Of a DNA stretch of 64,000 bases, positions 9,425 through 33,736 are shown piece by piece; within the stretch, counting starts at the first letter, position 1, and each line of letters starts with the position of its first letter. The notes under the pieces are model-generated. The model searched no databases, had not been told where the DNA came from, and saw only the letters and a list, made by a program, of their open reading frames with translations. Made by a program: the position numbers and the translations under genes. Source of the stretch: Paramacrobiotus metropolitanus (lineage: Eukaryota > Tardigrada > Eutardigrada > Parachela > Macrobiotidae); contig NW_026570405.1 in the NCBI RefSeq assembly GCF_019649055.1, positions 113,119 through 177,118 on the forward strand, written 5' to 3'.

Positions 9425-10376
9425 TATTATATTTTGCTTTTACTGAGGTAGTATGGAAAATATTCCTTTAAATCACTTGAATTTTATGTTTTAAGCAGTA
9501 AGCGAAACTGATTCCAAGCCAGTGTTCGACTTTGAGGAGGTTTTGTCCCAGATTGAAAGAACTTTACTCAAACTACGTACCAATGGAGGCGGTGAACACG
9601 ATTTATTTATGCATAAGCAGCAGCGGGGCTTGGACGATTTTCCTTACTGAAAGGGCGTTTACCGTAGAAATAGAAACGGCTAACATCCATTACAGCAGTG
9701 CTAGAAGGGAATGTCTACCAGGTGAGAGGATTCATAGTGATGTGAGTCATATGGGCGCAGACTCCTGGGATTCGGCAATTTCTGTTTTTCCCACTAGGCT
9801 CCAAATGATAGATATTCCAGTTTTGTTCTAAGAAGTGAGTCTGTGCACTTTGCGGAGCGTATGCGGCAGCGTGAAAACCTGCTGCTGCGGAGAGCGTGAA
9901 AACTTGCTGCACACATGACTTTTATTTTAAGCGGTTTGCTTCGACAATCGGCAAGGCGTGCGAGAAATGTCGCGCTGCTTTCCTTCGCCAACGTCATGGA
10001 GAATTAGCTGCGTGAATACACTGACCGCTCACGAAGATTGGAACGATGCTCCGTTAGTGGGAATAACCGGAAATCATGTCGATGAGCTTTTGCTTGCTGA
10101 TTTAGGGCTGACAGGAGAGCTATCAAGGGGATGACGACTGAGAGCTTACGCATTATCACATGGTTAGCCGTGCGATACAAAATAATCATTTTTTTACCCA
10201 ACTCGAGTGCCAAGCGTGTAAAAACAAAAGAAATCAAACAAATACCAGATTACTGAAGAAATACATGTGCTACAGAAACACATGTGGCAGGCACGAATCT
10301 CGAAGTTTTTTGTGGCTTCTTTGCCTGAATTTTTCAACAGCGACAACATCGTCCATCATGATGCTTTTACCCATGT
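9425..10376. repeat. Left copy of ~950-bp direct repeat flanking the Polinton
   Basis: This 952-bp segment is repeated in the same orientation at 31279-32224 (946 bp). I see three small length differences: one CTG, one AC and one T in a T-run. The 99-codon plus-strand frame inside (9532-9831) is identical in translation in both copies. The left copy ends exactly at the left inverted repeat of the Polinton, and the right copy begins 4 bp after the right inverted repeat. It contains a host-like terminal exon. It is not an LTR, because the enclosed element is a DNA element with its own inverted ends. Confidence 0.95.
9499..9650 (+). CDS. Candidate terminal exon of host gene (copy 1)
   Basis: After an acceptor-like TTTTAAGCAG the frame reads through SETDSKPVFDFEEVLSQIER, continues for about 30 more residues and stops at TGA 9648-9650. 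The composition is protein-like and acidic, unlike the other frames. I read it as the last exon of a host gene, possibly joined to the pieces at 8.39-8.93 kb. The family is not recognised. The same exon is present, sequence-identical as far as I can read, in the duplicated flank at 31353-31504. Confidence 0.4.
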
Positions 10377-10539
10377 TAGTGGGACTATTGGGCGATGCTG
10401 ACGAGCACTACCCGGCGTTCCGCTGTATGTGCCGCGCCAGCGGCACGGTACCGTTACCACTTCAACGGCCTATCGCTAGATGTGACGCAGGATGTGCGGC
10501 GCCCAAAGCGCATTTCGGTGGCCCACCAAAAGCGCATTT
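10376..10539 (+). repeat. Left terminal inverted repeat of the Polinton
   Basis: These 164 bp match the reverse complement of 31111-31274 essentially base for base. The inner part carries 23-24-bp tandem units with the core AAAGCGCATTT. The left end has three units (from 10505, 10528 and 10552) and the right end only two. The inner border of the inverted repeat therefore falls in the second unit, and the third left unit lies just inside. Confidence 0.95.
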
Positions 10540-11099
10540 TGGTGTACCACCAAAAGCGCATTTCGGCCGTACAATAAGGAAAGCGCGCGGTTTTATTTGC
10601 GACGCACATTTCAGCACTACTTAATTGAATTTTATTCAATAATCAGCACAACATTTGAGTGCTACATCAACAATCAGCAAGTCCAAGAAAAAACCACGGA
10701 AACTAAAACACCACTTCCTAATAAACCGATACATTCAGTCGCGTATAAACGAAAAAAATCCGTCCACTCCGAAAACAGCCTAACATTAGTCGCAGGTGAA
10801 AAGGTCGGTAAAAGCAAAAATACCCGACTGCATAAAACTGGAAACCGTATCTTTACTGCAGTAGAAAAAAAGTAAAAAATATTACTGCGTCACTAAAACA
10901 AAACATTCCAACCGCAAATCTTTCAGTCCGTCCACACACCATCTCTTCACGCGATAACTCCCGCCTTACTGCTTGGCTTTTTTTACGTCCGGTCTGATTT
11001 TCTTTATCCGAATCGCTATTTTCCACAATGTTCTCGCCATAACCAGACGTCGTTGCGTCGTTACCACGCGCCCGCTTTCCCTACAGAAACAAGCAAAAG
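10540..11099. other. Left subterminal region, no supported gene
   Basis: After the third AAAGCGCATTT unit the sequence holds a plus-strand frame to about 10875, rich in Lys and Thr. It has no homology that I recognise and begins inside the inverted repeat, so I do not call it a gene. No promoter or terminator can be assigned. Confidence 0.4.
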
Positions 11100-17096: not shown

Positions 17097-17126
17097 TTTG
17101 CACACGGTCTCATAGTATGACATCAT
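17097..17126. promoter_or_regulatory. Composite motif 3, between two divergent genes
   Basis: TTTGCACACGGT (17097-17108) and TGACATCAT (17118-17126) recur with 9-bp spacing. The site lies about 270 bp upstream of the minus-strand gene start (16829) and about 270 bp upstream of the polymerase frame (17398). This is the position expected of a bidirectional promoter element. Confidence 0.45.
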
Positions 17127-17397: not shown

Positions 17398-20300
17398 ATG
17401 TCACATTTTATCGATTGTGCTTTTCAGAAAGCTCAATTGCAGTTTGTGCTTTTTGTACCTCACAAAACGCCAGGATTGGCGCTTTACCAAGGGCGACAGA
17501 CCCTCAGTTCTAGTTTTAGCATTTACTGTCAACATCGATTTTTCGAAAAAATGGTTGAGTACGAGTTTTCTCAAGGCATGCTTGATGCTATGGCTCAAGT
17601 TGCGGCCATGGACGATATAGTGTTTGATGATTCTGATAACGCTAGTTATCCTGACTTGGATAATCCGGACTGGAACATGCAGCTGGGTGGAGGCTTGCCG
17701 GATAATATTGGTGATCTGGTGTCAGTCGTTCCAGAATCCCGCCGTTATTCTGCCAAGTATGGCCTGACTTTCGAGAATTATCGCGTGACCGTTCAGGACC
17801 TTCAGCATCTTGACCATTCATTTATTCCGGTGGCTATATCGGCTATCCTGCAGGATGTCCTGGATAATGTGCTCCGTGATGTGCCGGATCAGTCCATTGT
17901 TCGACTGCGGATCGAGCAAGATTCTCTGCGATATCCTATTTGGACTCCTCCAATGAACAAATCTGAGCTTTCTGTTCAACGCTGGATGGCGGAAGTCAAA
18001 CGCGTACTACAGTCGAACGAAACCTTCTCTTTGAATGAATCCTTCTTCATCCTGGTCCAGTACACCAAGATTCCTTCGGGTCAGTGCCTTAGGAATGTTC
18101 CGCAGTTGCTAAAAAACAAGCTGATCAAGATGCAGTGCGTCGTTCAAGTCAAGAATACTATGGACAACACCTGTCTAGCTCGCGCTATGGTCATTGCTAA
18201 AGCTTATGCTGATGAAGATCCTGCCTTATGCAAGAAATTACGCCAACAGAAGGCTGCTCAAACGGATGCTGCGTACGCCCTTATTCGTCGTGCAGATCTT
18301 CCCATTCGGGAATTCAGTATTCAGGATATCCCAGCATTCGAGAGGGTAAGTCACTGCTTGAAACCGTCCCGATTTTTTTTGAAACTGATCAAAATTACAG
18401 GCTCTGCAGGATTACCAAATCATTGTGGTCAGCGTTGAGCACTTAAACAGTATAATTTATAAAGGCAACGATAAAACAAAAAAATTTTATTATTGAACCA
18501 CAACCGCCATTTTGACGTTATTACTTCGTTTCCGGCATGGTTTAATCGCAGCTACTGGTGTTTTAAATGTGATAAAGGATATAATAACCGTGCTGCTCAT
18601 TTTTGCAAAGTGACCTGTGGTCTTTGTTTTCGTAATGATTGCGATATGGACACAAACAATAAGATCGTTTGTGTTGACTGTAAGCGAACGTTTTGGGTCA
18701 AGCATGTTTTGATACTCATAAGCTGGGTGCCGGCAAGACCAAAGGCAGCCATAAGCGCCAGTCTTTGTGCGGCTCAATTTTCTTTTGTACGTCTTGCAAA
18801 CATACTGTATCATTGCTCAAACGTGACCACCGGAATACGCATACCTGTGGCGAAGTGCGCTGCAAGTTTTGCCACCTGTTTGCATTACCGGGAACCCATA
18901 AATGCTATATGAAGACCCATAAGATGGTTGATGCGGAGCGGGCGCGTTGTGATGCCGCAAGATTTCTGTACTTCGACTTCGAGACCTACGTATCGAGAAC
19001 CAAAGAGCTCGTGCCAAATCTGGCGGTATGTATACTGTGCTGTAGAGTCGTAGCTGCTTGATACCAGTCAGGTTCTTTTTAGATTCTTCAATACGACGAC
19101 GGTACGGAACGGAGGTTTCCTTCTGATTCTGAAACGTTTGGTGGGGACGTGACGGATTCCTGTGCAAGTTCATATTTCAACAGGAACATAAAGGCTTTTA
19201 CGTCATTGCTCACAACATGAGGGTAATACTACGCTCGCTTTGTCATTACCGGTATTGAATTTTGGTTTTGGGTGTACAGGGATTTGATGGGTATTTTATT
19301 ATTCGGTGGCTCCTGAACAACGGTATTAACCCACGCGTCATCATGAACGGCGGTAAGATCATGTCCATGGAGGTCGAAGAGTACCAGATACACTTTCGGG
19401 ACAGCTACAACTACAACCCACAAAGCCTGGCAAAGTGGCCGGAAACCTTTGGTTTCGAAGGATTGAACAAAGGTACCTTCCCACACCGTTTCAACCGACC
19501 CGAGAACTGGAACCGAACCACTGAATTTCCTCCGCTTGCTGACTACGGCTTCGATTCTATGTTGGAGAAAGATAGACCAGCTTTTCAGTTGTGGTACGAT
19601 ACCGAACGGGCGGCTAAGGGCAACCGGTTTGTCTTCCGGAATGAAATCACCGAGTACTGTAGTATGGACGTAACCGTATTGCGGAAGTGTTGCCAACAGT
19701 TCCGGTCAATCTTTATGGACATTAGTGGTGGAATGTGCCCATTTGTCTGCGCGACAACTATTGCCGGACTTTGTAACCTGTACTGGCGGACGAAATTCTT
19801 GATGCCGAACCGGATCGCTCTGATTCCACGGTCAGGCTTTTACCGTAACCGACCTCAGTCTGCCAAAGCGCTTAAATGGCTGCAGTGGATGGCTCAAGAA
19901 ATCCAGGATTCGGACATTCAGTACCGGACACCGGACGGGAACGAGCACAAGATCGGCCCGTACTACGTTGATGGATACTGTCATCGAACCGGGACCGTGT
20001 TTGAGTTCTACGGATGCTGGTAGGCATATATTTTAAATTGTTAGTCTATTATAAAATTTCAATCTTTGTCTCAGGTTTCACGGTTGTCCCAAGTGCACTA
20101 ACCCAGACACCGTTCATCCATTTCGCGACCTACCCATGAAAGAGATCTTCGCTGAAACCATGCACCGAGAGGAGTTCCTCAAAATGACGGGCACCCAGTG
20201 ACATCAATTTGGGAACACGACTACGACGATCGCTGCAAAAGTGATGCTGACTTCCGAGCTTTTGTTAACGGTGTTTCAGTCCACGAACCCATCAACCCGA

Positions 20301-21726
20301 GAGATGCCTTCTACGGAGGCCGAACTAATGCCGCTCGACTGCACCACACAGTGGCGAACGGAGAGCAGATTCGGTACTATGACGTATGCAGCGAATATCC
20401 TTCGTCAACAAGAACAAACGCTACCCCGTTGGTCATCCCAAGATTATAACCAAAGACTTCAAAGATGCCAGAGAATACTTCGGCCTTATCAGTTGTGAAA
20501 TCCTTCCCCCGCCGGACTTGTATTTACCGGTGTTGCCGTACCGAAGCCACGGAAAACTAACGTTTCCCCTGTGCCGCACATGTGTCGAGCTTCAGCGAAA
20601 CTCAAAATGCTGTCACACTCCCGAAGAACGGAAACTTTGTGGTACGTGGTGCACTCCAGAGGTCATGGCTGCCCTGGACCGAGGGTATACGATTGTGAAC
20701 ATCTTAGAAGTTTGGCACTTCAGCGATTACGAAGACCACCTGTTTGCCAATTACGTGAACACGTTCCTCAAGATGAAGACGGAGGCAAGTGGTTGGCCTG
20801 GTGATGTGACGACGGAGGCTGACAAAGCACTCTACATTGAAGAATACAAGGCCAAAGAAGGCATTACTCTGGACCCCACCAAGATTGCCCTTAATCCCGG
20901 ACTTAGAGCTCTTGCAAAACTGTGTCTTAACAGCTTTTGGGGTCGTCTCGGTATGCAAGACAACAAGCCGACTACGAAGCACGTCACAAAGCCGGAGGAG
21001 TTCTACGACATGCTACTATCGGGAAAACACCACGTTTCTTCTTTTGACCTTATGAACGACGACGTCATTCAGGTGACGTATCGGATGGAGGAAGGTTTCG
21101 TGGAGCCTAATCCACATACGAGTGTCGTACTGGCCGCGTAAGTACACGTCCAAGTTGAAAGTACTCGTATCTTATTATTGCTACTTTCAGTTTTACAACA
21201 TGCTGGGCTCGCCTTCATTTGTATGGATATATGGAGCAAGTAGGACGAGATCTGCTCTATTTTGACACGGACTCCATTATCTTCGTCCATCGTCCTGGCG
21301 GAAATGCACCAGTTACAGGGAAGTTTTGGGCGACCTTACAGATGAGTTGAAACCCGGCCAATATATTCGGGAATTCGTCTCACTAGGTAACTAGGACTTC
21401 ACCTGCGGAAATTGTCATGACCTTTAATGTTTTGCTTGCAGGGCCAAAATCTTATGCCTATCAAACGAATGACTTGAAAACGGTCGTCAAAGTTAAAGGT
21501 TTTACCATCAATGGACAGACGCAGAAGATCCTTAATTTTGAAAATATGTTAAACATGCTCGGTAGCTCAGACGCTGTAACTGTAAGTTATCCTAACGCCA
21601 TTCAACGCAGCAAACGTAAATTCTCGTTGATTGAAGCGGATCTCTAAAAAATTTCGAATGACTTACGATAAGCGCCGAATTATGGGCAACTGGAACACGT
21701 TGCCTTTTGGTTACTGCAGTGAGTAA
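17398..21726 (+). CDS. polB: Protein-primed family B DNA polymerase with six mini-introns, frameshifted
   Basis: This is the replicative polymerase of the element. The N-terminal part (to 18345) resembles Polinton/adintovirus polymerase N-termini (PSGQCLRN, DNTCLARAMVIAKAYADED). Cysteine pairs follow (CFKCDKGY, CGLCFRN, CVDCKRTF), then the exonuclease box YFDFETYV (about 18970), HNM-GFDGYF, the polymerase box YYDVCSEYP (20380), LCLNSFWGRLG (20925) and the catalytic YFDTDS (21258). It ends at TAA 21724. Introns are inferred where conserved frames are split at GT..AG: 18346-18400, 19026-19082, 19223-19279, 20020-20074, 21138-21190 and 21387-21441 (53-57 bp). One-base frame changes remain near 18692, 19150, 20197, 20398, 21315 and 21640. 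They are either sequencing errors or decay. The start could be the Met at 17551 instead. Confidence 0.93.
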
Positions 21727-21741
21727 ATTTCGGCATTGTTC

Positions 21742-21987
21742 TTATCCGATTCCTTTCTGCATTGTATCGTTACTAAATTTGTGCAATAAAACAATTACTT
21801 CCGTCACATTGTTTGTTTGGTTTCCGTCCCACAAGAACAATTGTTCGCGGATCTGACGAATACATAATAACGTCACGATAGATAGGAATATAAACATTCC
21901 TTGAACAGCCATACAGACTCTAGTGAACCTGTTCTCGATTCTCAATATTCTTAGTTGCCGATCCATTTCTGAAATTATGAAGAACAC
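21742..21987 (-). CDS. Small single-pass membrane protein, unknown
   Basis: An 81-codon minus-strand frame (Met at 21987, or MDRQLRILRIENRF at 21966) has a basic N-terminus, a hydrophobic segment (MFIFLSIVTLLCI) and a C-terminal part with NQT and NVT glycosylation-like sites. It lies in the otherwise empty gap between polymerase and ATPase, on the opposite strand, and is not a shadow of another gene. This looks like a small type II or III membrane protein. No homologue is known to me. The AT-rich context means chance cannot be excluded. Confidence 0.4.
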   Translation of the reverse strand: MFFIISEMDRQLRILRIENRFTRVCMAVQGMFIFLSIVTLLCIRQIREQLFLWDGNQTNNVTEVIVLLHKFSNDTMQKGIG

Positions 21988-22262
21988 TAATGAGAACTCT
22001 CTGGAGTTTTAGTTAAACGTATCTCGATGCTCACTTAAATAGCTTGCATCTTCAAAAAATAATTCTGTTAAAATTGATAGAGCAAAAATTACTAAAACAA
22101 TAGAATTAGTTGCTGTACTTATGTTTTCTACAAGAAAAAATGCTAAAAGAAAGTTGAAATTTTGTGGAATTTACTCGATCAAATTTAGCACTTAATGGTT
22201 TCTAGGAATTTTTAAACATTGATATCATGGCCTTAGGCTATTTAAGTTAAGTAGTTGCTGTT
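21988..22262. other. AT-rich intergenic gap
   Basis: Nothing recognisable. It probably contains the promoter of the ATPase-to-protease gene block, but no specific element stands out. Confidence 0.35.
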
Positions 22263-22943
22263 ATGTTTAGCAACATGTGTAGTATTCAAGATTTTGACTG
22301 CCGTTTCCGGTTACCCGCTGGCATTGTGGTTGCCGGACCAACAATGAGCGGTAAGACACAGTTTGTTTTTCAGTTGTTACTAAAGAAGGAAGTTATGTTT
22401 GACAATGTTCCACAAAAAATAGTTTATTGTTACGGGAATGGCAGGACGCATTTGATGGACTGGGCGAACAGATTGAATTTATCAAAGGGTGGAGCCAGTG
22501 TTGGACAACGAAGAATTCTTTGACAGACGGATACCCACGCTGCTTATCATCGACGACTTAGCCATGGCGGTGAGTACAGACCCACGAAGCAGTAAACTGT
22601 TTACTCAGGGCATTCATCATCGCAATCTATCGGTAGTATTGATTCTGCAAAATTTGTATCGTCAAGGTAAGTCTATGCGTGACATCGCGTTGAACGCACA
22701 ATATCTGGTACTGTTCAAAACGTGCGAGATACAGGGCAAATAAATGTTTTGGCGCGACAAATGGGACTGCCACATTTACCAGAAGCATACAGGAAGGTAA
22801 CATCGGAACCGTATCAACCGTTAATCGTGGATATGCGTCCCAGCAGCAAAGACTATTTAAGGGTGAGATCACACATTTTTCCGGACGATCTTACAAGAAT
22901 ATATGTGAAACGAAACACAGCAGTACCATGTCGGAACGGGTAA
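22263..22943 (+). CDS. FtsK/HerA-type genome-packaging ATPase, frameshifted
   Basis: The N-terminus MFSNMCSIQDFDCRFRLPAG leads into the Walker A loop VVAGPTMSGKTQ (residues ~24-35). The Walker B strand LLIIDDLAMAV follows in the next frame (22537-22570), then the sensor-like VVLILQNLY and a conserved C-terminal part (RDTGQINVLARQMG). The family packages DNA into capsids of the adenovirus/PRD1 lineage. The reading frame changes near 22467, 22493 and 22718, each explicable by one missing base (in GGGC, in an AG context and in an A-run). About 225 residues is normal for the family. Its end overlaps the next gene by 16 bp. Confidence 0.92.
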
Positions 22944-23254
22944 AAAAAGCGGCACCATTTGTGCTGACGCTAAAATCACTGAAGCCGAAACAACGAAAAG
23001 TGCTGCTCAGTTACGCTACGAAAGACCAAATACGCGCCATTGAGGAAATTGCCTTGAATATCGTAAAGAACACCACACCAATTTCCTCAGAGTACTTGGA
23101 AATATGCAAACGCCATCGAAAACCATTGAAGCTATTGGCATTAAAGCGATACCCCATTAAAGCTAAGCGTGAAATTTTGCAGCAAGGAGGATTTATTGGA
23201 GCCATATTACCTGTCATAGCAAGTTTAGTGGGATCGCTTATCGCAAATGGATGA
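22928..23254 (+). CDS. pX-like virion core protein
   Basis: An intact 108-residue frame. The N-terminal two thirds are basic (Lys/Arg-rich helices) and the C-terminus is a hydrophobic Gly-rich segment, GGFIGAILPVIASLVGSLI. Adenovirus pX and its Polinton counterparts share this layout: a basic DNA-binding part followed by a GGF-type hydrophobic tail. The likely role is genome condensation or capsid association. It overlaps both the ATPase (16 bp) and the following gene (8 bp). The assignment rests on architecture and position rather than on strong sequence identity. Confidence 0.75.
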   Translation: MSERVKKAAPFVLTLKSLKPKQRKVLLSYATKDQIRAIEEIALNIVKNTTPISSEYLEICKRHRKPLKLLALKRYPIKAKREILQQGGFIGAILPVIASLVGSLIANG

Positions 23255-23724
23255 ATATTTTATTGTTCCAAAACATAAAATGTCGGAGCGTGCTGCGGAA
23301 ATTCAGATAAACAAGGAACCGCCAGAAGCCGTAGAAGTGCTGTCGCTCGATAATCTTACTGCAAAAATTCTTAAAAGAGGCGATATAAGTGACTGGGAAA
23401 AAGCGGAACTATTAAGATCTACCTTAGAACGGTTTTAGCACTTAAACCTCAAGCATTTGAAGAGCCCGTTGTCAAGCCACCGCCACCGGTTCTTTCCAAT
23501 ACAAAAGCGGTACCGGCACCCCGAAACCGAGAAAATCAAAAGGCTAGCGCTCCACCCCGGAAACACCAACAGAGTTGTCGCCTGAAATTCCTATACGAAC
23601 ACCGTCAACAGTAAAGAAAAGATCCAACAATCGCTACACGCCGTTTACACCATATGTTAGCACGCGGACTAAACGTCAACCAAACCGCTACGCTGACCAG
23701 TTTGGTGGTTGGATTTGCATTTAA
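23247..23724 (+). CDS. Proline-rich Polinton protein of unknown role, frameshifted
   Basis: The start MDEYFIVPKHKMSERAAEIQ is followed by an acidic helical region. After a frame change near 23430 comes a proline-rich linker (EEPVVKPPPPVLSN). After another change near 23565 come SPEIPIRTPSTVKKRSNN and a basic tail ending ADQFGGWICI before TAA 23722-23724, about 158 residues in all. Polintons often carry a protein with this order (conserved N-terminus, Pro/Arg-rich tail) next to pX and integrase. No biochemical role is known to me. It starts inside the pX gene and stops 2 bp before the integrase start chosen here. Confidence 0.6.
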
Positions 23725-23726
23725 GG

Positions 23727-24745
23727 ATGGAGGGCTGTTTACCTTCAGCCATTCGGCTGTGCCGCATGTTTAAAGTAACGTGCGTGTCTAACTGTTGTAA
23801 CGATGGAGACGACTCTGATGAAGAAGTACCTCGACCCGAGGAACCCGGAAGCCTGGGCGGAGTAAAGAGGTTTTACCAAGAAGTAAAACCACACGTACAG
23901 AACAGGGAAGAAGCCCAAGAAATATTGGAAAAGCTAGACGAATACACAGTGACCAAACAATCGAAGAAGAAGTTTCCACGGAATCGGATAATAGTTACCA
24001 ATCTGCAGCAACAGTACCAAGTGGATCTAGCTGATGTCAGCAAGTTTAAGCGCGAAAACAAAGGCGTCCGGTACCTACTAGTAGCTATTGACTGTTTCTC
24101 AAGAAAAGTCAGTGTTCAACCGCTGAAAGCAAAAACGGGCACTGCTGTGAAGACGGCATTAGGCAAAGTATTCCAGGAACTAGGAGAGCCCATGAAAGTG
24201 CAGTCGGATAAAGGGCGCGAGATGTTTAACAGTACTGTTCAGAACTTCATGAAAGAAAGGAAAGTTTTATTGTTTTCATCGGAAAATAATGATATTAAAT
24301 GCGCCCTTGCCGAACGCGTAATTCGCACTCTGAAGGAGCGGATTTTTAAATTATTTCGGCACCGATTAAACACAAAATATTTGGACAAACTAGATGATAT
24401 TGTGTACTCGTACAACCATAGTATTCACTCGTCCCATGGAATGCGCCCCGTGGATGTATCGCAAAACAACTCGCTGCATGTTTTCAATAAATTAAATAAA
24501 ACTGCCAAGCAACAAAACTTCCGCGGTTCGATGTGGGCGATACAGTGAGGATGTCAAAAATAAAACGGACTTTTGAAAAAGGATATGAAAATCGATTTAC
24601 CGAAGAAATTTTTCGCATCAACAAAGTTATTCCTCATGAGGAACCGGTATACCAACTGGAGGCTTTGGATGGAGAACCCATTAAAGGACAATTCTATGAA
24701 CCAGAAATAACAATGGTTCGCAAAAGCCTACACAAAAATGCATGA
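23727..24745 (+). CDS. INT: Retroviral-type (rve) integrase, one frameshift
   Basis: The conserved entry GSLGGVKRFYQEVK and FPRNRIIVTNL precede the DDE core. The first Asp is in YQVDLADVSKF, the second in VQSDKGREMFN, and the Glu is in ALAERVIRTLKERIF, with 34 residues between the last two. The C-terminal DNA-binding part (GDTVRMSKIKRTFEKGYENR) is in another frame after a one-base change near 24530. The enzyme joins the inverted-repeat ends to target DNA, normally giving 6-bp duplications. The Met at 23727 is chosen because it follows the previous stop immediately; 23769 is an alternative. The last 8 bp overlap the penton gene. Confidence 0.93.
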
Positions 24746-25667
24746 AAATCGGGCGTTTTACATGACTTTACCTAGCGATGCCAGTATGTCAGATTATCCT
24801 GACAACACCGCTTCTGATTGGCAGACCAGACTGAAGCAAGCAATACAGTTGAAAGGAGCATGGGAAGTGGCGCTAGTGGAGTTGCAGTATCTGAATTCTT
24901 TGTTTACTATACAGTATCCTCAGACTATCAACATTACAAGTATTGATGATATAGCTGTTGTTCCTAAAGATGACGGCTCTACTCTGTATCTTCTAGAAGA
25001 GTTTACAGAGCAAATTGTGGTGCCACCAGGAAACTACAAGAGGGACGAGTTATTGCTCGACGTAATCAACAAGCAAGCTCCAAAAATAAAAGGGTTTACG
25101 CAACATCCTGGAGGGCCCATGGAGGATACCAACGGAGGTTGTCCTGATGAGCGAGCAGTGAACTTTCGCTTTCTGGCACCAACAAACCATCGCGTAGTCG
25201 TCTCAGTGTACAGTCCGCGTATTTCTGTTTCATTTCCTAAAGAATCAGCCTTACTCCAGCGTATCCTTGGGTTTGACGAGTCAGGCCTATCAAACGCATC
25301 AAAGGAAATTCGTATCAAGCGCTTCTTGGCAGCGCGAAAAGAAAATAAAAAAACAAGGGATGAGTATTTGGCAACAAGAACGGTGAATACTTTGCTGCAG
25401 AATCAAAGTCTGTACCTGTACTGCGACATTGTTGATTTCAGCTACCTTGGAGACACTTCCGCGCAGATTTTGCGTGTCGTGCCTATTAAGGGGCAAGTGA
25501 ATGAGATGGTAGATAATGTATTCGATAGTCCCCATTACGTTCCGGTTTTACCATCATATTTTGAGACTATCCATCTGACTATAGCTAACGATAGTGGTGA
25601 AAACGCCAGGTTTGAAACAGGCAAATCACTAGTTAAGCTTCATTTTCGGCCAGCTCGATTATATTAA
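24738..25667 (+). CDS. Penton / minor capsid protein (PX)
   Basis: An intact 309-residue frame. It opens AFYMTLPSDASMSDYPDNTA, has the early motif GAWEVALVELQY, and ends with DSGENARFETGKSLVKLHFR. These are characteristic of the Polinton penton, a single-jelly-roll capsid protein that forms the five-fold vertices. Its ATG overlaps the integrase stop by 8 bp, and its TAA is followed one base later by the next ATG (TAAAATG). There are no frame breaks. The large intact frame makes it one of the best-preserved genes of the element. Confidence 0.92.
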   Translation: MHENRAFYMTLPSDASMSDYPDNTASDWQTRLKQAIQLKGAWEVALVELQYLNSLFTIQYPQTINITSIDDIAVVPKDDGSTLYLLEEFTEQIVVPPGNYKRDELLLDVINKQAPKIKGFTQHPGGPMEDTNGGCPDERAVNFRFLAPTNHRVVVSVYSPRISVSFPKESALLQRILGFDESGLSNASKEIRIKRFLAARKENKKTRDEYLATRTVNTLLQNQSLYLYCDIVDFSYLGDTSAQILRVVPIKGQVNEMVDNVFDSPHYVPVLPSYFETIHLTIANDSGENARFETGKSLVKLHFRPARLY

Positions 25668-25668
25668 A

Positions 25669-26073
25669 ATGCCTCTTGTCGCGTACGAACCCAATCCACA
25701 GCGGTATGACGAAGTGTTTACCGTTCAAGTTGGACATGGAACCCTTACCCGATACCGAGGCTCGTACCAACAAAACGGGAGCGGCTTCTTTCCCCAAATC
25801 TTGAAAAACCTGTTTGCAAAAATTGCCAGTATTGCCAAGCCGATTATTCGAAGTGCTGCCCCGCATGCCAAAGCCGCACTAGAAGCTGCAACTCCCCACC
25901 TGCAAGAAGCAGCCGTTGAGGCCATTAAAGACACCAAGAAACGGGCAACGGACGCAATAGCAAAGCGATTTGAGCCACAAGAAGGACAAGGAGTCCGTAA
26001 GAAGCGTGCACGACCACGAAAGATTACGAAAATTCGAAGAATACCACCACGCCACATTCCTGATTTCTTATAA
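25669..26073 (+). CDS. pVI-like minor virion protein
   Basis: An intact 134-residue protein. The N-terminus contains YRGSYQQNGSGFFPQILKNL, an aromatic/Gly segment followed by an amphipathic helix. An alanine-rich helix (PHAKAALEAATPHLQEAAVE) and a basic C-terminus (RKKRARPRKITKIRR) follow. This order matches the adenovirus pVI-like, membrane-active cement protein of adintoviruses. It lies between penton and major capsid protein, where this gene is usually found. Both junctions are TAAAATG. Assignment is by architecture and position. Confidence 0.75.
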   Translation: MPLVAYEPNPQRYDEVFTVQVGHGTLTRYRGSYQQNGSGFFPQILKNLFAKIASIAKPIIRSAAPHAKAALEAATPHLQEAAVEAIKDTKKRATDAIAKRFEPQEGQGVRKKRARPRKITKIRRIPPRHIPDFL

Positions 26074-26074
26074 A

Positions 26075-27402
26075 ATGGCGTTTATTTTAGAAGGATCCGC
26101 GCCGGCTATGCAGCTGGAAAATCAGTTATTTGCCGTTCCAGCTTCTTACACTGACCGCTGGCGGACCGAACACGAAAGAATATACCCCAGCTCAGCACTG
26201 ACCGAGGACGGAACGGCCGGCGATATTTCTTTTTTTATTCTGGCTAGCACCAGCGGACTTCTGGCTTTACCCGAACTGTGCATGGAACTGGAAGTCGCCG
26301 TCAAAGCGAGAAATGGACAGACCCATGCAGATTCATTATGGATGCCGATGGGGTCGCACCAGTTAACAACTTACTGCATTCATTATTTCAAACTGTACAC
26401 GTGACGCAAGCAGTCTGATTGATTTCGGACGCGTCGCTGTATTATCCCTACCGAGCTCATTTAGGATGCCTACTTCGCTACTCGACTGATTCCATCAAGA
26501 GCCAATTACGTCAAGTGGTTTTTACTTGGACATACCCGGGGAATCCAACGAATACACAAAAAATGATGGCGAGGAAGCGCGGCGAAAGCTGTTCCTTAAC
26601 AAAAATTATGTACAGCTGTCCGGTAAGCTGTTTTCCGATCTCTTCAACCAGACCAAACCTCTTATTACCGGAGTACCCCTGAATATTCGTATGGTGTTAT
26701 CTCGACAAAGCTTCATGCTGCGTATTTGGGATGCTGATACCGACAAGAAATTCAAGATTTTGTTAGGAACCCCGATTGATGATTCGACGCTATATTCCAG
26801 CTCCAGACTTTATGATAGCCGTGGCCAATCAACTGCAGACAAAACGGTCAAATATCATATCGAACGTACGGTTATTCGAGTTTCGGACATCCCAGCCAAC
26901 ACACAAAGCACAGTAGTCAGCAATGTACAGATAGGACAGCTCCTAAAGTGGTTCTTATCGGGTTCGTTAATAGCGAGGATTTCCATGGAGCAGATAACAC
27001 ATCACCATTTCAGTTTCAACACTGTAACGTTCAGCAAATAAGCGTCGAGATTGATGGAGTCAGTATACCTACTAAACCCTACATGGCAGAATTTGATAAG
27101 CATCTGACTTTGGAGTGCTATGATGGACTGTTGGACACCCTTGGTCGGAAGTGTAACCCTACGGGAGAATGGTGTATTTCGAGGGAGGATTATGCGAAAG
27201 GCTATAGCGTGTTTGGTTTTGACTGCACCCTGGGAGCACCGGCCTGGGACCATTGACCTTAATTCGACAAGGCAATTTAAGCATATCGGTTTCCTTTAGT
27301 AAACCACTACCAAAGCCCGTGATGATGGTGTGCTACATGGTCTACGACTCTATTTTAGAAATTAATCAACATCGGCAACTTATTGCGGACTTCACGACAT
27401 GA
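26075..27402 (+). CDS. MCP: Major capsid protein (double jelly-roll, PY), frameshifted
   Basis: The start MAFILEGSAPAMQLENQLFA is followed through several frames by typical capsid segments: LISDASLYYPYRAHLG (26419 on), LFSDLFNQTKPLITGVPL, QSFMLRI, KVVLIGFVNSEDFHGADNTS, and the C-terminal SVSFSKPLPKPVMMVCYMVY. The length of about 442 residues is normal. The reading changes near 26335, 26510, 26935 and 27248, and a TGA lies in frame at 26416-26418. The protein forms the hexon-like trimers of the capsid. The stop TGA overlaps the protease ATG (ATGA). The gene is plainly homologous along its whole length, so the breaks are either consensus errors or very recent damage. Confidence 0.93.
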
Positions 27403-27908
27403 ACACGGCCGAAATAGAAACGGCACTAGCCAACAATGCCTTAACGAAATCGACATTTCGGGGTGTGTTTGCTGCCGATCAAGTGCCGTCAGACCTTGGT
27501 CAATTGCCAGCAGCAGTAGTCGTCAATTCCGACCCAGCCGCCGAACCGGGAAGTCATTGGATTGCGTTCTACCAGGACACTCCGGACCAAATCGAGTATT
27601 TTGACTCGTATGGCCAGCAGATATCGGTATATGGGGATTTTTCTTTTGTTAAAGGTCACAAAATAATAATGCAGAATCAACAACTGCAGTCTAATTTTTC
27701 TTCGGTTTGTGGTCAATACTGTATGTTTTTTCTTTTACGGCGAGCAAGTGGAGAATCCTTTCCACAGATTGTTCATTTATTCACTGATAGTCAACGTAGC
27801 AACGATATTATGGTTTGTCAGTATGTGAATTACAAGTTCGATATTAGCACTTCATTATTTGACAACAAATTTTTTAAACAGACTGCAAAAAATAAACTAC
27901 TTGAATGA
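27399..27908 (+). CDS. PRO: Adenain-like cysteine protease
   Basis: An intact 169-residue frame. The catalytic His is in PGSHWIAFYQD (about residue 53), the acidic partner in IEYFDSYG (about 71), and the Gln/Cys pair in VCGQYCMFFLLRR (Cys about 105). This is the adenovirus/Ulp1-type protease that matures capsid proteins. It starts inside the MCP stop codon (ATGA). It converges with the minus-strand PC4-like gene, whose stop lies 48 bp downstream. Confidence 0.92.
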   Translation: MNTAEIETALANNALTKSTFRGVFAADQVPSDLGQLPAAVVVNSDPAAEPGSHWIAFYQDTPDQIEYFDSYGQQISVYGDFSFVKGHKIIMQNQQLQSNFSSVCGQYCMFFLLRRASGESFPQIVHLFTDSQRSNDIMVCQYVNYKFDISTSLFDNKFFKQTAKNKLLE

Positions 27909-27955
27909 AAAAACAATGTTGTCGTTGGATATACCTTAGTTGTAGAAAAATAGAA

Positions 27956-29038
27956 TTAGACAGTCATACTACGAAGCTCAACACGATTACTCTCAAAAAA
28001 TCCGTTAATATCCAATGAGCACACCTGCTTGTTGCTGACGCGATTATTCTCCAATAAAAATGCTTCCAAATACTTTCCGGTCTTTAGGGCGTCTTCCGCT
28101 TTCTTCCATTCCTCATCCGTCGGTTGCACCATCACTTTAGCGAATTTGCAGATGTGTGGTTCGTCGGAGTCCGGCAGATGACACGGACCACAGGTCGATG
28201 ACCGATGCTTCGCAATCTGGGCCAGGAGCATCAGGCTGACCGCAGGCTTCAACCCAACGTAATCCAAACCATCCATTGGTGGGCTGTCTTTCAACTTTGC
28301 CGCTTCCTGGAACAAGGTCATTTCTTTCAGGATTTTTTCAGTCCGTCAAACGCTTTCTGCCCAAAGCTGATGCCACGCTTGGTCGGAATCATATCGCCGG
28401 CCTCGTTCTTGGTATAGTTACGGATGGTGGCCAGATTGGAGCGGTTGAATCGGCTCCAAGTGAAGTACAATCCGTTGCCCAAGTTGTACTTAGCAGCAGT
28501 CAGCTGGCAGTCGTCCGTGGTGGGCAATTTGGCCAGGTCATCCAGGTCGCCCTTTCCCGACATAATGATCCCCGCTAGGCGATGGAACTGGCGCTCATTT
28601 AGCGTAATATGCTTGGCCGTTTTCTCCCAGGTATCGGGACCCACCTCCTTCCATTCTCCAATGGTGACAGCCAACCAAGTAAAGTTACCGTACGCCGAGG
28701 TGCGAACGCTAATGAATTTGTCGTAGCCAATTTTGTAAACCGCAAACTGGCCGTCTAGAAATGCGGGCTTTTCCTTGTACATCCGTAGTTTAACTTGGGG
28801 ACGATTTCGAATTCCGGAACAGCTGCAGCTTTCGGCTTAGTCTTCAGCTTCTTGCTGGGAGCTTTCAAAGGTCATCTTTTCCAGGTTTGCTGCCAGCGAC
28901 TTCAGGCTGTTTGGCGGGTACAACGTCCGGACTCTTTCGTTTCGGATGAATGGCATCCTGGCGCACAACAGGAGCCGGAACATCCGCAGTAGTGCCCTTG
29001 GCATCGGTACCGAGAAAGGAGGAAAATATGACATCCAT
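27956..29038 (-). CDS. Protein with two PC4-like ssDNA-binding domains, frameshifted
   Basis: Read from ATG 29038, a short Ala/Pro/Lys-rich tail (...LKAPSKKLKTKPKAAAVPEF in a shifted frame) leads to two similar domains. Domain 1 (28782-28570) contains FAVYKIGYDKFISVRTSAYG and ends KHITLNERQFHRLAGII. Domain 2 (28500-28330) contains LYFTWSRFNRSNLATIRNYT, then GDMIPTKRGISFGQKAFDGL. The pattern of beta strands, IRxY, then G-x(2)-P-x-(K/R)-(K/R)-GIS plus a helix is the signature of PC4/Sub1 (p15). A ~120-residue tail with a CGPC motif follows after a frame change in an A6 run near 28330. PC4 proteins bind melted or single-stranded DNA and act in transcription or replication. Two further frame changes lie near 28795-28845. 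It is the only minus-strand gene in the right half. Confidence 0.7.
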
Positions 29039-29376
29039 GGTTTAAAAAATTAGAACTGAACAGTAAAACGAAAATGTTGCAACTGACGGTTGACAACAAA
29101 ACTGACAGCGGACTTTTCACAAAATGCAACCATTAGCTGCGGTTGTGAGGTTCAAAAGCGCACTTTTCAGAATGAGCTTTTTTTGCGTCACATTGGGGTA
29201 CATGTGCGGCCCGTCTCTGGGACTGTGCTTTGCTGCGGCACAATTGTGGAAATGAGTGCTTGCAAAGTCACAAAATGAAAATTTGCTGCGGGAAAGTAAC
29301 AATTGCCGTCTTTTTAACGAATCGAACTGCGGCAAACGTGGAACGAAATCAGTTTCACCGTTTCGGAGTTGCAGCC
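29039..29376. promoter_or_regulatory. Divergent intergenic region between PC4-like and downstream plus-strand genes
   Basis: About 340 bp separate two divergent starts and must hold both promoters. Recurring words such as TTTTCAcaAAATG-like and GCTGCGG are visible, but I cannot define a site. Confidence 0.3.
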
Positions 29377-29810
29377 ATGGCTGTAAAAGTTGTTCTTGAT
29401 GCTGACTGGTTTATTATTAATAAACAGAAGTACGTCAAAAATTAGCTTTTTTGTTCCGTCTCGTGGAGTCTCTGGCGAATTCTCTTTCACTCTACCAACG
29501 TTCGCAGCATTGCACAGTAAACTTTTGCAACAACAAGCCCGACATTCCCACGGTCTGGTGTGGAATACAGCCGGTGACCTTTGTGGAACCAAGTGGCTGA
29601 CGCCATCGAAGAGATTTTGACCGTATAAATCTACGGCCCGTGGACTGTGCGTTTTATTCCAAAGGACTGGAAAAGTGCCGGCTTTTTGAGAAGTACGTAC
29701 CTACCGTCAAGAACCTTGACGACCTCGGCTGCCCGACCTTCAAAACACTGTGCACCTTGAGCCAGACTACGCGGAATAAAGCTATTGTGTTTGGACTATG
29801 GCTACCGTGA
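29377..29810 (+). CDS. Polinton-associated conserved hypothetical protein, frameshifted
   Basis: The Met at 29377 opens MAVKVVLDADWFIINKQKYV, then the frame changes near 29440 to LAFLFRLVESLANSLSLYQR. Further on come RPVDCAFYSKGLEKCRLFEK, KNLDDLGCPTFKTLCTL and a stop at 29808. The order (D-x-[DE]-x-F at the start, KELA-like segment, P-rich middle, a YxKGxEK box, C-terminal C-x(n)-CTL) matches a family I associate with Polintons and other element-derived animal proteins. Its function is unknown to me. An in-frame TGA lies at about 29610. Its end overlaps the TBP-like gene by 13 bp. Confidence 0.55.
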
Positions 29811-30316
29811 ACAACATTGTTGCCACGGCGGATTTGAACTGCCAGTTGGATCTCGACCAAATCGAAGACAAGATACCAATGGCGCACTACGACCCACGTA
29901 AGTTTTCCGGGTTATTATGGCGTATTCTTAAACCGTACAAAGCACACTGCCAACTATATAGTAACGGTAAAATTACAGTAAATGGTGCTCGCACTGTAGC
30001 CGAAGCTGAGAATTTAGTTCAGCATTTCGCGCACATTCTCGAACGCTTTAGTTATCGTGTGACTGTTACTAACTTTCATATTGTTAATATGGTGGCGACA
30101 TATGATTTTGGTCAGCGTTTTGATTTATTAGACTTAGCGTACAAAATACCACGCTGTAACTATTCACCGACGCGGTTTCTCGGTTTAATTGCGCAACTAG
30201 ATACTTGTACAGCGGTTGTGTTTTATAGCGGAAAAGTCAACTTTCTCGGTGGAAAGTCCGCTGACGATATCGACCATGGGCTGCAGCAGCTCACCCGTTA
30301 CATTGCCCGGAACTAA
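29798..30316 (+). CDS. TATA-box-binding-protein (TBP) homologue
   Basis: An intact 172-residue frame consisting only of the two-repeat TBP saddle. Repeat 1 starts VNNIVATADLNCQLDLDQI and has YDPRKFSGLLWRI and LYSNGKITVNGARTVAEAE. Repeat 2 has VTNFHIVNMVATYDFGQRFD, YSPTRFLGLIAQL and FYSGKVNFLGGKSADD. In cellular TBP the DNA-kinking phenylalanines sit in the KRF-type and F-S/V-SGK positions. Here they read F, Y, F, F. Overall similarity is clear but distant, and the long species-variable N-terminus of cellular TBP is absent. It should bind promoter DNA as a basal factor. It overlaps the preceding gene and precedes a zinc-ribbon gene. Confidence 0.88.
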   Translation: MATVNNIVATADLNCQLDLDQIEDKIPMAHYDPRKFSGLLWRILKPYKAHCQLYSNGKITVNGARTVAEAENLVQHFAHILERFSYRVTVTNFHIVNMVATYDFGQRFDLLDLAYKIPRCNYSPTRFLGLIAQLDTCTAVVFYSGKVNFLGGKSADDIDHGLQQLTRYIARN

Positions 30317-30350
30317 ACTGGATAGAACAAAGTCAGCGGCTGCCGTATGT

Positions 30351-30500
30351 ATGGACTGCGGAGGCAAATGCGACCGGGTCCGTGGCGCCATGGCCTTGCG
30401 ATACCGACCGCCATGCGCTAGTCGTCAAGGATTCGTTGACCCGACCCACCGTTGCCCGCGGTGCGGCTACGTATGTTTCAACTACCCTCGAAAACTACCG
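30351..30500 (+). CDS. Small zinc-ribbon protein (or N-terminus of the BIR protein)
   Basis: The Met at 30351 starts MDCGGKCDRVRGAM. After a short basic linker comes HRCPRCGYVCFNYPRK, giving two C-x2-C-type knuckles about 40 residues apart, as in zinc ribbons of basal transcription proteins. The frame stays open past 30500, but there it overlaps the BIR frame and loses protein character. A frame change near 30480 could fuse this ribbon to the BIR domain, as other genes here show similar changes. I cannot name a closer family (TFIIB, RPB9 or TFIIS type). Confidence 0.45.
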
Positions 30501-30877
30501 ATGACAATAAATCAACTACTGGCGAAGACGTTTGCGGACCGTACAGTACCTTTCGCAATGCTGACCCGCTCCAGCCCAAGAAACCAAGTATGGCCAACTA
30601 CAACGTCCGGCTGGCCAGCTTCACTGCATGGCCCAAGATCCGATTTCAGCGGGAACAGGACATGGCGGCGGCGGGCTTTATTTTTCTTGGACCTAATGAC
30701 CGCGTCGAATGCTTTTCGTGTGGTCAAGTGGTGGAGGCGTGGCACCCTGATGATGATGTTTGGGAAGAACATGCTAGAATTGCACCTTATTGCCAGTTTG
30801 TATTGCAAACGAAGGGTGATCAGTTCATTGATATTGTCTTGGAGAAATTCAAAAAACGTGTTCTGTTTTATTATTGA
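30452..30877 (+). CDS. Single-BIR (IAP-type) protein
   Basis: The likely start is the Met at 30590 (MANYNVRLASFTAWP). The BIR fold is complete: RLASFTAWP, then AAAGFIFLGPNDRVECFSCG and HPDDDVWEEHARIAPYC. This gives the exact zinc pattern C-x2-C-x16-H-x6-C with the Gly after the second Cys. A short Lys-rich tail ends at 30877. No RING or CARD follows. BIR proteins inhibit caspases or other apoptosis factors, and viral copies keep infected cells alive. This is the last gene before the right end. The open frame extends upstream to 30452 and could be joined to the zinc ribbon. Confidence 0.85.
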   Translation: MPAVRLRMFQLPSKTTDDNKSTTGEDVCGPYSTFRNADPLQPKKPSMANYNVRLASFTAWPKIRFQREQDMAAAGFIFLGPNDRVECFSCGQVVEAWHPDDDVWEEHARIAPYCQFVLQTKGDQFIDIVLEKFKKRVLFYY

Positions 30878-31110
30878 ATTTACGGTTTTATTTTATTACT
30901 TTTTACGGCCTTGAAGTGCGTGTTACTTTGTTAAATAGCTGATTAAAAATTGACGTCATGCGGAGCTTTATGTGTAGCGGTACTTCGTAATTGGCTTTAC
31001 GCTTCATCACGAATCTCTCTTACTGCTTCACGCCGTACCGGCTATGGCTTCAACATGTAAGGAATGATGCAACTTAGCACATAGCGTAACACCCAGCCGC
31101 ACACTAGCCG
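30878..31110. other. Right subterminal region, no gene
   Basis: AT-rich 3' flank of the BIR gene, then sequence leading into the right inverted repeat. Nothing else was recognised. Confidence 0.5.
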
Positions 31111-31274
31111 AAATGCGCTTTTGGTGGGCCACCGAAATGCGCTTTGGGCGCCGCACATCCTGCGTCACATCTAGCGATAGGCCGTTGAAGTGGTAACGGT
31201 ACCGTGCCGCTGGCGCGGCACATACAGCGGAACGCCGGGTAGTGCTCGTCAGCATCGCCCAATAGTCCCACTAA
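31111..31274 (-). repeat. Right terminal inverted repeat of the Polinton
   Basis: Reverse complement of 10376-10539 with no difference that I can see. It carries two AAAGCGCATTT units against three at the left end. Confidence 0.95.
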
Positions 31275-31278
31275 CTAC

Positions 31279-32224
31279 TATTATATTTTGCTTTTACTGA
31301 GGTAGTATGGAAAATATTCCTTTAAATCACTTGAATTTTATGTTTTAAGCAGTAAGCGAAACTGATTCCAAGCCAGTGTTCGACTTTGAGGAGGTTTTGT
31401 CCCAGATTGAAAGAACTTTACTCAAACTACGTACCAATGGAGGCGGTGAACACGATTTATTTATGCATAAGCAGCAGCGGGGCTTGGACGATTTTCCTTA
31501 CTGAAAGGGCGTTTACCGTAGAAATAGAAACGGCTAACATCCATTACAGCAGTGCTAGAAGGGAATGTCTACCAGGTGAGAGGATTCATAGTGATGTGAG
31601 TCATATGGGCGCAGACTCCTGGGATTCGGCAATTTCTGTTTTTCCCACTAGGCTCCAAATGATAGATATTCCAGTTTTGTTCTAAGAAGTGAGTCTGTGC
31701 ACTTTGCGGAGCGTATGCGGCAGCGTGAAAACCTGCTGCGGAGAGCGTGAAAACTTGCTGCACATGACTTTTATTTTAAGCGGTTTGCTTCGACAATCGG
31801 CAAGGCGTGCGAGAAATGTCGCGCTGCTTTCCTTCGCCAACGTCATGGAGAATTAGCTGCGTGAATACACTGACCGCTCACGAAGATTGGAACGATGCTC
31901 CGTTAGTGGGAATAACCGGAAATCATGTCGATGAGCTTTTGCTTGCTGATTTAGGGCTGACAGGAGAGCTATCAAGGGGATGACGACTGAGAGCTTACGC
32001 ATTATCACATGGTTAGCCGTGCGATACAAAATAATCATTTTTTACCCAACTCGAGTGCCAAGCGTGTAAAAACAAAAGAAATCAAACAAATACCAGATTA
32101 CTGAAGAAATACATGTGCTACAGAAACACATGTGGCAGGCACGAATCTCGAAGTTTTTTGTGGCTTCTTTGCCTGAATTTTTCAACAGCGACAACATCGT
32201 CCATCATGATGCTTTTACCCATGT
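31279..32224. repeat. Right copy of ~950-bp direct repeat flanking the Polinton
   Basis: Same orientation as 9425-10376 and nearly identical. Beyond 32224 the sequence continues into unrelated DNA (CGACATCATCC...), while the left copy runs into the inverted repeat at the corresponding point. The right copy's end is therefore the natural continuation of the pre-insertion locus. Confidence 0.95.
31353..31504 (+). pseudogene. Duplicated host terminal exon (copy 2)
   Basis: Identical in translation to 9499-9650, from the SETDSKPVF start to the TGA at 31502-31504, including the acceptor-like TTTTAAGCAG. The rest of the gene is not repeated here, so this copy is orphaned by the insertion or duplication. 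Confidence 0.4.
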
Positions 32225-32918
32225 CGACATCATCCTTTATATTAACGGATCACTAGTTTTTGCTTTGTGGCACTCTTAATTTTCTTAAGGGTAAATCGAA
32301 GCAATTTACAATAAAAGAATGGACGTCTGCGGAGCAAAACGAGGATTTGGTATATCATGTATGCGCCTGCCACATGACCCAACAAGTATTTAAATGCAGC
32401 ATTTACGTAAGCGTTATCGCTAATCCCTTGTCTTCCGGCATATTAGCACCTTTAGCTCTGCAGTAGAGCAACATCAGTTCTATACCGATTAAAATTTCCG
32501 CAGTTGGTAATGTGGGAGCTCGCCCACAAAGGCCTAAATATCAATTACTGTACTTGCCAATAACGAAAACCACTGCAATGCCGGCCTCTCTACCGATAGA
32601 CGGCATACTTTATGCAATTCAAGACGGCAGAACCGGCCGACGTGTTGTGCAACACGTTGGCCAAAGAACAGAACACAAAGGCATTACATAAGTACACGAA
32701 CATGTATGTCAGCAGACGTACACAATGTGTGCAAAGCCCACACATCCCCCCGTATTGGAAAAACATGTAGATATAGTCTAGAAGAAACCAAAACCAAAGG
32801 AGAAAACAGACAACTAAGGAACGTCTAGAAAAAGATCACCAGCATGCACTGACTATAACTTTCAAATTTGGTTTAAAGAATGATAGGTAAAGATACTTTA
32901 GAACGGAAATTATTCTGA
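32225..32918. other. Intergenic, nothing recognised
   Basis: Host-type flank to the right of the duplicated segment. No gene or repeat was seen. Confidence 0.45.
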
Positions 32919-33736
32919 TTAAATAGAACGACTACGCTCAGGGCGGATGCTCTTTCGACATACTGGGCAACGTGGTCTTCTTTGTGGCATGAGTCCAAGA
33001 GAGGAATCGATCCGGAGGTGATCTGTGTATGCCTGGAATATTTTTCCAAGGCAGCGTAAGCATATTACGTGACCGCAACACAATTCTACAGTCGTAAGCA
33101 GTTTTTTTTTGTTAAAAGTCCCAACAACATACCGGACATCCCTTTTGATTTTGTTTCGATTGATTAGTCGGTATCGGGTCCACTGTAAGGGCTGATGACG
33201 TTGATTGTTGATATGTTAGAGTTACCGTTGCAGGTGTCGTAGCCGATTTGGTCGGCTGTGAAGGTGTTGGAACTAATGTTCTGGTAGGTGTAGCTACTGT
33301 AGTTGGTGTTAAAGCTACTGAAAATGGAATCCAGTCCAAAATTGCTTGGCGTTCATATTTTCGTTGTCTGCGTTTGCGTCGCAATATAGCTGGTGGCGTA
33401 AGCCACAGGCATCTTCTTCTATGGGTGAGCTGCATCGTAATCTCGGTTATGTTCGCGCACGGCACGGGTGTCGTAGCGCTGATGAATTATCCGTAATAAA
33501 TGAGGACTTAAAATAATAAGCAATATATGTCGTCGGAATGTATGGATATAAATAGCAATCTCGGATTGCGAAGAATAGCAACAATTACTACAGGAATGGC
33601 AGTTGTTAGGGAAGTCCACAAGTAACGCCTCAGTTTCGTAAGCAATTTTTAGATAATTATCTGCAATGCTGATATCCAGTATGATTACCTCGTAATCAGT
33701 ACTGCAATTAATCATAAGCGGACGGTGATGATCCAT
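32919..33736 (-). CDS. RING-finger protein, frameshifted
   Basis: From the Met at 33736 (MDHHRPLMINCSTDYEVIIL) a Cys-containing N-terminal region leads, after a frame change near 33440, to a basic stretch (AILRRKRRQRKYERQ) and a Thr/Pro/Ser-rich linker. The zinc-binding part then begins GCPVCCW (33125). After a one-base frame change it continues LLTTVELCCGHVICLRCL and RPRCPVCRKSIRPERSRS to a stop at 32919. The pattern C-x2-C ... C-x-H-x2-C-x2-C ... C-x2-C is a C3HC4 RING, typical of E3 ubiquitin ligases. It lies about 700 bp right of the duplicated flank, outside the Polinton. Host gene or pseudogene status is open. Confidence 0.55.

Follow-up and report, generated by a model that had tools for sequence, protein, structure and literature searches.

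Does a Polinton, a mobile element of ~21 kb, carry a TATA-binding protein (TBP) of its own, and if so, what would such a protein do for it? The question is raised by an open reading frame at positions 29798..30316 of the window, i.e., the whole stretch of 64,000 nucleotides of Paramacrobiotus metropolitanus DNA analyzed here, which is part of contig C185 in a genome assembly of 169.8 Mb and 533 contigs. An earlier note, made from the letters alone, had proposed that the frame encodes a complete two-repeat TBP, intact inside the element, that it is an element gene and no captured bystander, and that TBP is, to its knowledge, not a described Polinton gene.

The TBP gene and the element around it

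The Pfam profile PF00352 matches the window TBP in two stretches covering both lobes, with 133.8 bits against a curated cut-off of 22.9, and the predicted structure is the TBP saddle, with two pseudo-symmetric lobes. The claim of a complete and intact two-repeat TBP is borne out by both the strong profile match and the fold prediction. The protein is a bare core without an N-terminal extension; its stirrup set consists of three Phe and one Tyr, and both central Asn are present. Its start overlaps the last 13 bp of an upstream DEDD/DnaQ-fold exonuclease-like gene, as noted earlier, and the right terminal inverted repeat (TIR) lies ~0.8 kb from the TBP gene in this copy. The identity of the gene as TBP and its membership in the element are near certain. 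The features of the element and its flanks are as follows (coordinates; strand; assignment).

9425..10376; +; flanking direct repeat, left copy, 952 bp, outside the element
10378..10542 (approximate); +; left TIR, outermost bases unlike sister copies
17398..21141; +; family B DNA polymerase (PolB), in pieces; PF03175 E 2.8e-18 and 1.1e-15 on two pieces
22645..22916; +; putative packaging ATPase, C-terminal part, in two frames; tblastn E 4.5e-30 against a sister-copy ORF
22928..23254; +; what we take to be a PX-like gene; homology to sister copies
23709..24548; +; retroviral-type integrase; PF00665 E 2.7e-11
24738..25667; +; by its position, putatively the penton (minor capsid protein); without Pfam match
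25669..26073; +; small conserved gene preceding the capsid gene, presumably pVI-like by position; homology to sister copies
25961..27256; +; putative double-jelly-roll (DJR) major capsid protein, by gene order and sister-copy homology; split by frameshift
27399..27908; +; putative adenovirus-type (adenain-like) protease; PF00770 E 5.3e-4; many genome homologues
27956..28321; −; small ORF; homologues in several sister elements
28327..28782; −; gene with a PC4 domain (transcriptional coactivator p15), in divergent orientation to the exonuclease–TBP pair; PF02229 E 3.4e-9
29377..29810; +; DEDD/DnaQ-fold exonuclease-like gene upstream of TBP; three frames in the window copy
29798..30316; +; element-encoded TBP, 172 aa, intact, two lobes
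30452..30877; +; gene with one BIR (IAP) domain, downstream of TBP; PF00653 E 6.7e-22
31108..31279 (approximate); −; right TIR, ending ...CCCACTAACTACT
31279..32224; +; flanking direct repeat, right copy, abutting the element end

Some of these assignments are to be read with their scores. The protease match to PF00770 reaches 20.2 bits, slightly below the Pfam cut-off of 21.3, the putative capsid gene matches PF21738 (DJR) with E 0.087 on one piece of the broken gene, and the packaging ATPase (FtsK/HerA) was assigned by eye, with homologous fragments in the window and in the sister loci L075 and L081. PolB falls into four pieces (17398-18438, 18475-19058, 19259-20023, and 20386-21141), and is a single ORF of 1023 aa in sister copy L016; sister copies hold longer frames. 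Frameshifts split the PolB, capsid, ATPase-like, and upstream exonuclease-like genes, and the window copy is partly decayed or misassembled. Its TIRs (168 nt) are 99% complementary, and both ends are flanked by a direct repeat of 946-952 bp, of which no further full-length copy was found in the genome. A 6-bp target-site duplication (TSD) was not seen at the window copy, where the left end differs and these direct repeats flank the element; this copy is either a rearranged or a wrongly assembled insertion.

Other features of the window and of the sister elements may be recorded here. A long tandem repeat of the AACT type lies at 15372-15655, between the left TIR and PolB, and an LTR retrotransposon with Gag, reverse transcriptase, and integrase zinc-binding matches (59246-64000) runs off the window end. 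BIR-RING IAP-like genes lie near the packaging-ATPase-like gene in sister Polintons L080 and L081; the L080 gene has, by eye, two BIRs and a RING. The window copy has one BIR, located at the opposite end.

TBP belongs to the gene set of this Polinton lineage

Both TIRs bound five copies, namely the window copy and those on contigs C134, C81, C110, and C8, and in four of the five TBP lies inside both TIRs. Copies identical to the window TBP in every letter lie within the TIRs on C134, C81, and C110, and each of the four sister copies (C134, C81, C110, and C8) has a perfect 6-bp TSD. The C8 copy (C8:1058455-1079117), with both TIRs, the 6-bp TSD, and a partial protease of 96% identity, has no TBP among the matches listed; it is perhaps a deletion derivative.

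When 10 kb around 20 TBP loci were fetched and searched with the window proteins by tblastn, Polinton genes were found in 20/20 neighborhoods; these were picked for having TBP, and all belong to group A (see below), adjacency of group B loci to protease matches being known by coordinates only. PC4-gene homologues adjoin TBP in 16 of the 20. The reverse test, which takes protease or PolB rather than TBP as its starting point, found a TBP-like locus within 15 kb of 139/150 merged protease loci, with ~6 expected from genome coverage, and of 67/79 merged PolB loci. Earlier counts, based on matches of the window TBP and the Pfam TBP profile only, had been 100/150 and 43/79; they rose because searches with two divergent TBPs were added. 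Eleven of the 150 protease loci, the C8 copy included, have no TBP within 15 kb among the matches listed. Since the query was the window's own protease, the 150 matches favor near relatives. The TBP searches covered the best 150 of 286, 493, 279, and 297 candidates, respectively, the protease search the best 150 of 343, and the PolB search 79 of 507. In union, the genome holds at least 232 TBP-like loci, host gene and decayed pieces included, of which 73 have neither protease nor PolB within 15 kb among the matches listed.

Moreover, TBP and protease distances across 15 loci with both genes are strongly correlated (Mantel r 0.91; none of 9999 permutations reached this value), which is what common descent of the two genes would produce. 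The view of TBP as an element gene and no bystander is thus upheld by the protease-anchored count and the co-divergence with protease, and the search of other Polintons that the earlier note had suggested turned up sister elements with TBP in the same genome. The window TBP belongs to the genes inherited within a Polinton lineage of Paramacrobiotus metropolitanus.

TBP variants in the genome range down to ~25% identity to the window TBP, and many have open frames. Several loci differ in gene structure. In L014, L018, L019, L020, and L023, the TBP frames lack a nearby ATG and follow an exonuclease-like gene that is longer and has a Cys-rich tail; the two are possibly joined by splicing. In L009 (4484-5431), exonuclease-like gene and TBP form one frame of 316 aa, which is either a natural fusion or a one-base assembly error. 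Pairs of TBPs in opposite orientation and with equal scores are found at C13:232603/C13:242018 (~9 kb apart) and C218:20409/C218:39740 (~19 kb apart), and these are perhaps inverted element pairs.

Origin of the element TBP and selection on it

The host TBP core (C4:406165-406662, used with its frame break left in) is 86% identical to human TBP and 29% identical to the window TBP. In a tree of 71 rows, all 50 element-type TBPs (20 from the P. metropolitanus genome and 30 environmental) form one clade with support 100/97, while the host TBP groups with human TBP at 99/97. The element-type clade, here of 21 rows, is recovered at 99/99 in a tree of 36 rows, and an AU test rejects a grouping of the element-type rows with the TBPs of host and human (p 0.0056). 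The window TBP is thus shown by computation not to be a copy of the host TBP, and the phylogenetic check proposed earlier separates the two. The deeper position of the clade is uncertain because the branches are long, of which the tree program warns. The clade includes group A, to which the window TBP belongs, and group B, which is very divergent. Two further proteins, P0115 (on a 1.9-Mb contig) and P0119, fall beside it in the 71-row tree and are not known element genes. The environmental TBPs may be Polinton genes as well; those named P0011, P0076, and P0089 come from contigs of 27.6, 20.0, and 16.7 kb, respectively. No relative was confirmed in IMG/VR, which was scanned with a single TBP, a TBP alignment, a protease alignment, and one PolB, and a scan of a genome-contig collection with the TBP alignment found none.

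Nei-Gojobori estimates (own script) give TBP dN/dS values of 0.10-0.31 in 15 of 16 pairs, the sixteenth being saturated in dS; the genes thus evolve under purifying selection at the protein level.

Residues on the DNA face and the partner faces

The alignment used for the residue counts comprises 67 sequences of group A and 26 of group B, mostly environmental. Three of the stirrup Phe are present in 67/67 and 26/26, respectively. The fourth position, N.L5.1, is Tyr in 66/67 group A sequences and Phe in 21/26 of group B; the earlier observation that one of the four DNA-kinking Phe positions is Tyr in the window TBP therefore holds for nearly all of group A. In the available part of PMC7221094, Phe is given at N.L5.1 in >90% of sequences, and an aromatic swap, e.g., to Tyr, is said to influence TATA binding. 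The central Asn of the N-lobe is found in 66/67 (A) and 23/26 (B) and that of the C-lobe is invariant in both groups. In addition, group A carries extra Asn at columns 136 (66/67), 142 (67/67), and 242 (66/67).

With respect to partners, the two C-lobe Glu that touch TFIIB (human E284 and E286) were mapped by us to alignment columns. The acidic contact at C.L3.4 is Glu in 62/67 group A and 26/26 group B sequences and C.L3.2 is Glu in 30/67 and 23/26. The window TBP has Thr and Ser at the two positions; given these residues, and given that Glu at C.L3.2 is found in only 30/67 of group A, recruitment of TFIIB by the window copy is doubtful. On the N-lobe helix, columns 156, 157, 160, and 164, which we take to be the basic residues that bind host regulators, are not conserved as basic in group A.

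Promoter motifs and the TFIIB partner

A shared promoter motif for the element genes was looked for and found no support. From 14483 to 33547, the window lacks the canonical box TATAWAWR; relative to dinucleotide shuffles, the box is seen 0 times vs 3.6 expected in the gene-bearing part (17000-31000) and 8 times vs 7.5 expected in the whole element. In 20 sister loci pooled, 105 matches vs 69.5 expected were counted, AT runs in two loci raising the count. Depletion of canonical TATA boxes was therefore rejected, the motif being neither consistently enriched nor consistently depleted. Canonical boxes of the TATAAAAA/TATAAATA type stand 47 bp upstream of the exonuclease–TBP pair in L021 (5863) and L022 (4522), which are close relatives; the feature is not general.

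In a first set, six loci have PX, and each of them carries the motif TATTWAAG 67-85 bp upstream of this gene. PX was found in 10 of 11 further loci, in which TATTWAAG is kept in 5/10 and synonymously changed in 5/10, and many matches are conserved codons (VIKE and YLR peptides). A herpesvirus-like late promoter was accordingly rejected, as the motif is inconsistent across the further PX loci and many matches are coding; TATTWAAG at the capsid junction was dropped, as the motif there is coding too. A separate observation concerns TATTTAAGGAATC, which stands ~56-65 bp upstream of, and outside, the exonuclease-like gene in L025 (5958), L026 (5990), and L028 (4565), from two locus lineages.

Three TFIIB-family loci were found in the genome by Pfam, on C45, C100, and C28. 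None of these contigs has a TBP locus among the matches listed, part of which were compared by eye, and no TFIIB-family or TFIIB-zinc-ribbon match was found by Pfam near the listed TBP loci, a search that a divergent TFIIB-like gene would escape. The upstream overlapping gene was considered as a viral TFIIB partner and rejected, as it resembles DEDD exonucleases and not TFIIB.

A model for the element TBP and its alternatives

The residues on the DNA-binding, adapter, and regulator faces fit initiation on element promoters, which is the most likely role of the protein. In the model that we propose, the element TBP would bind the minor groove and bend the DNA at core promoters of the element itself and contact host TFIIB via the usually conserved C-lobe acidic position. 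This contact would recruit host RNA polymerase II and lead to initiation complexes on element promoters. The changed DNA-face residues might give a sequence preference unlike that of host TBP, and the protein may escape the host regulators TFIIA, Mot1/BTAF1, Brf1, and TAF1 because the N-lobe basic patch is missing. The divergent PC4-domain gene may act in the same step. As a whole explanation, an inherited, element-encoded TBP that recognizes element promoters together with host TFIIB and polymerase II is in our judgment probable. A bolder form of the model is put forward tentatively: an element of ~21 kb, in which no RNA polymerase was found, may run an orthogonal system of promoter recognition, where a TBP with the Tyr/Asn set would read a non-host core promoter and be blind to host regulators. 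The lineage would then be old and, to judge by the environmental TBPs, widespread in Polintons of small animals.

The element TBP might instead have a DNA-architectural role and bind or bend element DNA in replication, packaging, or integration. Such a role would suit the overlap of its gene with the DEDD-exonuclease-like gene, the distance of ~0.8 kb to the right TIR in the window copy, and the search for a shared promoter motif that found none. We regard it as unlikely, however, since the full TBP architecture is kept, in most cases with the adapter position of the C-lobe, and the neighboring gene encodes the transcription-cofactor domain PC4. Nor do we think it likely that the protein is a decoy that occupies host promoters or TFIIB without initiation, thereby damping host transcription or defense. 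A decoy should need less than the low dN/dS across the whole protein and the C-lobe acidic position kept in 62/67 (A) and 26/26 (B) sequences indicate, and elements carried in the germ line would presumably gain little by host shut-off; the unconserved N-lobe regulatory patch and the eroded TFIIB contact of the window copy are what this reading has in its favor.

Transposons do acquire host genes, and a captured host TBP or TBP pseudogene, carried as a bystander, would be an instance of this. It is made very improbable by the 29% identity to a host TBP that is itself 86% identical to human TBP, by the AU rejection of a clade with both (p 0.0056), by dN/dS far below 1, and by a TBP-like locus at 139/150 protease loci; the reading is refuted unless the tree is a long-branch artefact. 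That the TBP loci stem from another organism in the sample, or from misassembly, is least credible of all: the assembly is in 533 contigs and near-identical copies are present, but copies stand at many sites on long contigs, and for four of them the flanking DNA shows a TSD of its own.

Significance and annotation

TBP is near-constant in the small Polintons of one animal with >200 TBP-like loci, while viral TBPs are otherwise described from large dsDNA viruses, as far as the available part of PMC11410667 goes. This suggests that selection can favor a promoter-recognition factor of one's own even where the element must borrow the host polymerase. The TBP loci of this genome also constitute a large natural variant series for the evolution of TBP DNA preference and partner choice. 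At the same time, they complicate genome annotation, as element TBPs of P. metropolitanus are already listed as TATA-box-binding protein-like. In the case of P0032 (XIAP-like at NCBI), the public gene model joins the first 33 TBP residues to the BIR gene (cf. window 29798-30877), and a locus with an intact TBP is consequently annotated as a chimeric E3 ligase; the chimera may reflect either an erroneous model or a transcript variant that really exists.

Comparison with known systems

The element resembles Polinton/Maverick elements (Preplasmiviricota) in its TIRs, 6-bp TSD (in sister copies), PolB, integrase, and length of ~21 kb and, putatively, in its adenain-like protease, capsid-like genes, and packaging-ATPase-like gene. 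To this set it adds TBP as near-constant, accompanied by PC4-domain, DEDD-exonuclease-like, and IAP genes. Such a gene content was not found for Polintons among the matches listed from the literature searched and, in agreement with the earlier note, no description of TBP as a Polinton gene was found among those from the open-licence literature. Term searches for TBP, TATA, and PC4 found no mention in the 2014 Polinton capsid paper (PMC4028283) or the 2024 survey of double-jelly-roll viruses (PMC11071308). In the accessible portion of PMC11071193, on tardigrade transposons, Maverick appears once, in a superfamily list, and in that of PMC10675990 the TBP genes of Cymbomonas elements belong to a mirusvirus-linked set and not to Polinton-like viruses.

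Among large dsDNA viruses, TBPs are described in three, and then four more, families in the available text of PMC11410667. The viral TBPs or TBP-like proteins among the matches listed include mirusvirus TBP, nimavirus wsv303, ASFV B263R, and poxvirus VITF-3; compared with Polintons, those viruses are large, and both ASFV and poxviruses encode an RNA polymerase. According to the part of PMC7221094 at hand, almost all TBP-bearing viruses, poxviruses excepted, also have TFIIB-like genes, whereas here Pfam found no TFIIB-family gene on the contigs with a listed TBP locus.

With cellular TBP (host tardigrade, human, and archaeal), the element TBP shares the fold, the four aromatic stirrup positions, and the two central Asn. 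It differs in being 26-33% identical, in Tyr at N.L5.1 and Asn at columns 136, 142, and 242, and in its unconserved N-lobe basic patch and absent N-terminal extension.

KSHV ORF24, a TBP mimic of beta- and gammaherpesviruses, is a larger protein that, in the excerpts available, works in a six-protein complex, reads TATTWAA, and is without the acidic residues of the TFIIB contact. The Polinton TBP is a bare 172-aa core, and therefore without an ORF24-like polymerase II-binding N-terminal domain; it usually keeps one TFIIB-contact Glu, and no TATTWAA-type motif (tried as TATTWAAG) stands consistently upstream of the element genes. What the two have in common is a virus-encoded TBP fold, which in ORF24 is used with host polymerase II, and polar DNA-face residues that include extra Asn, on which ORF24 depends (PMC12529657, in the part available).
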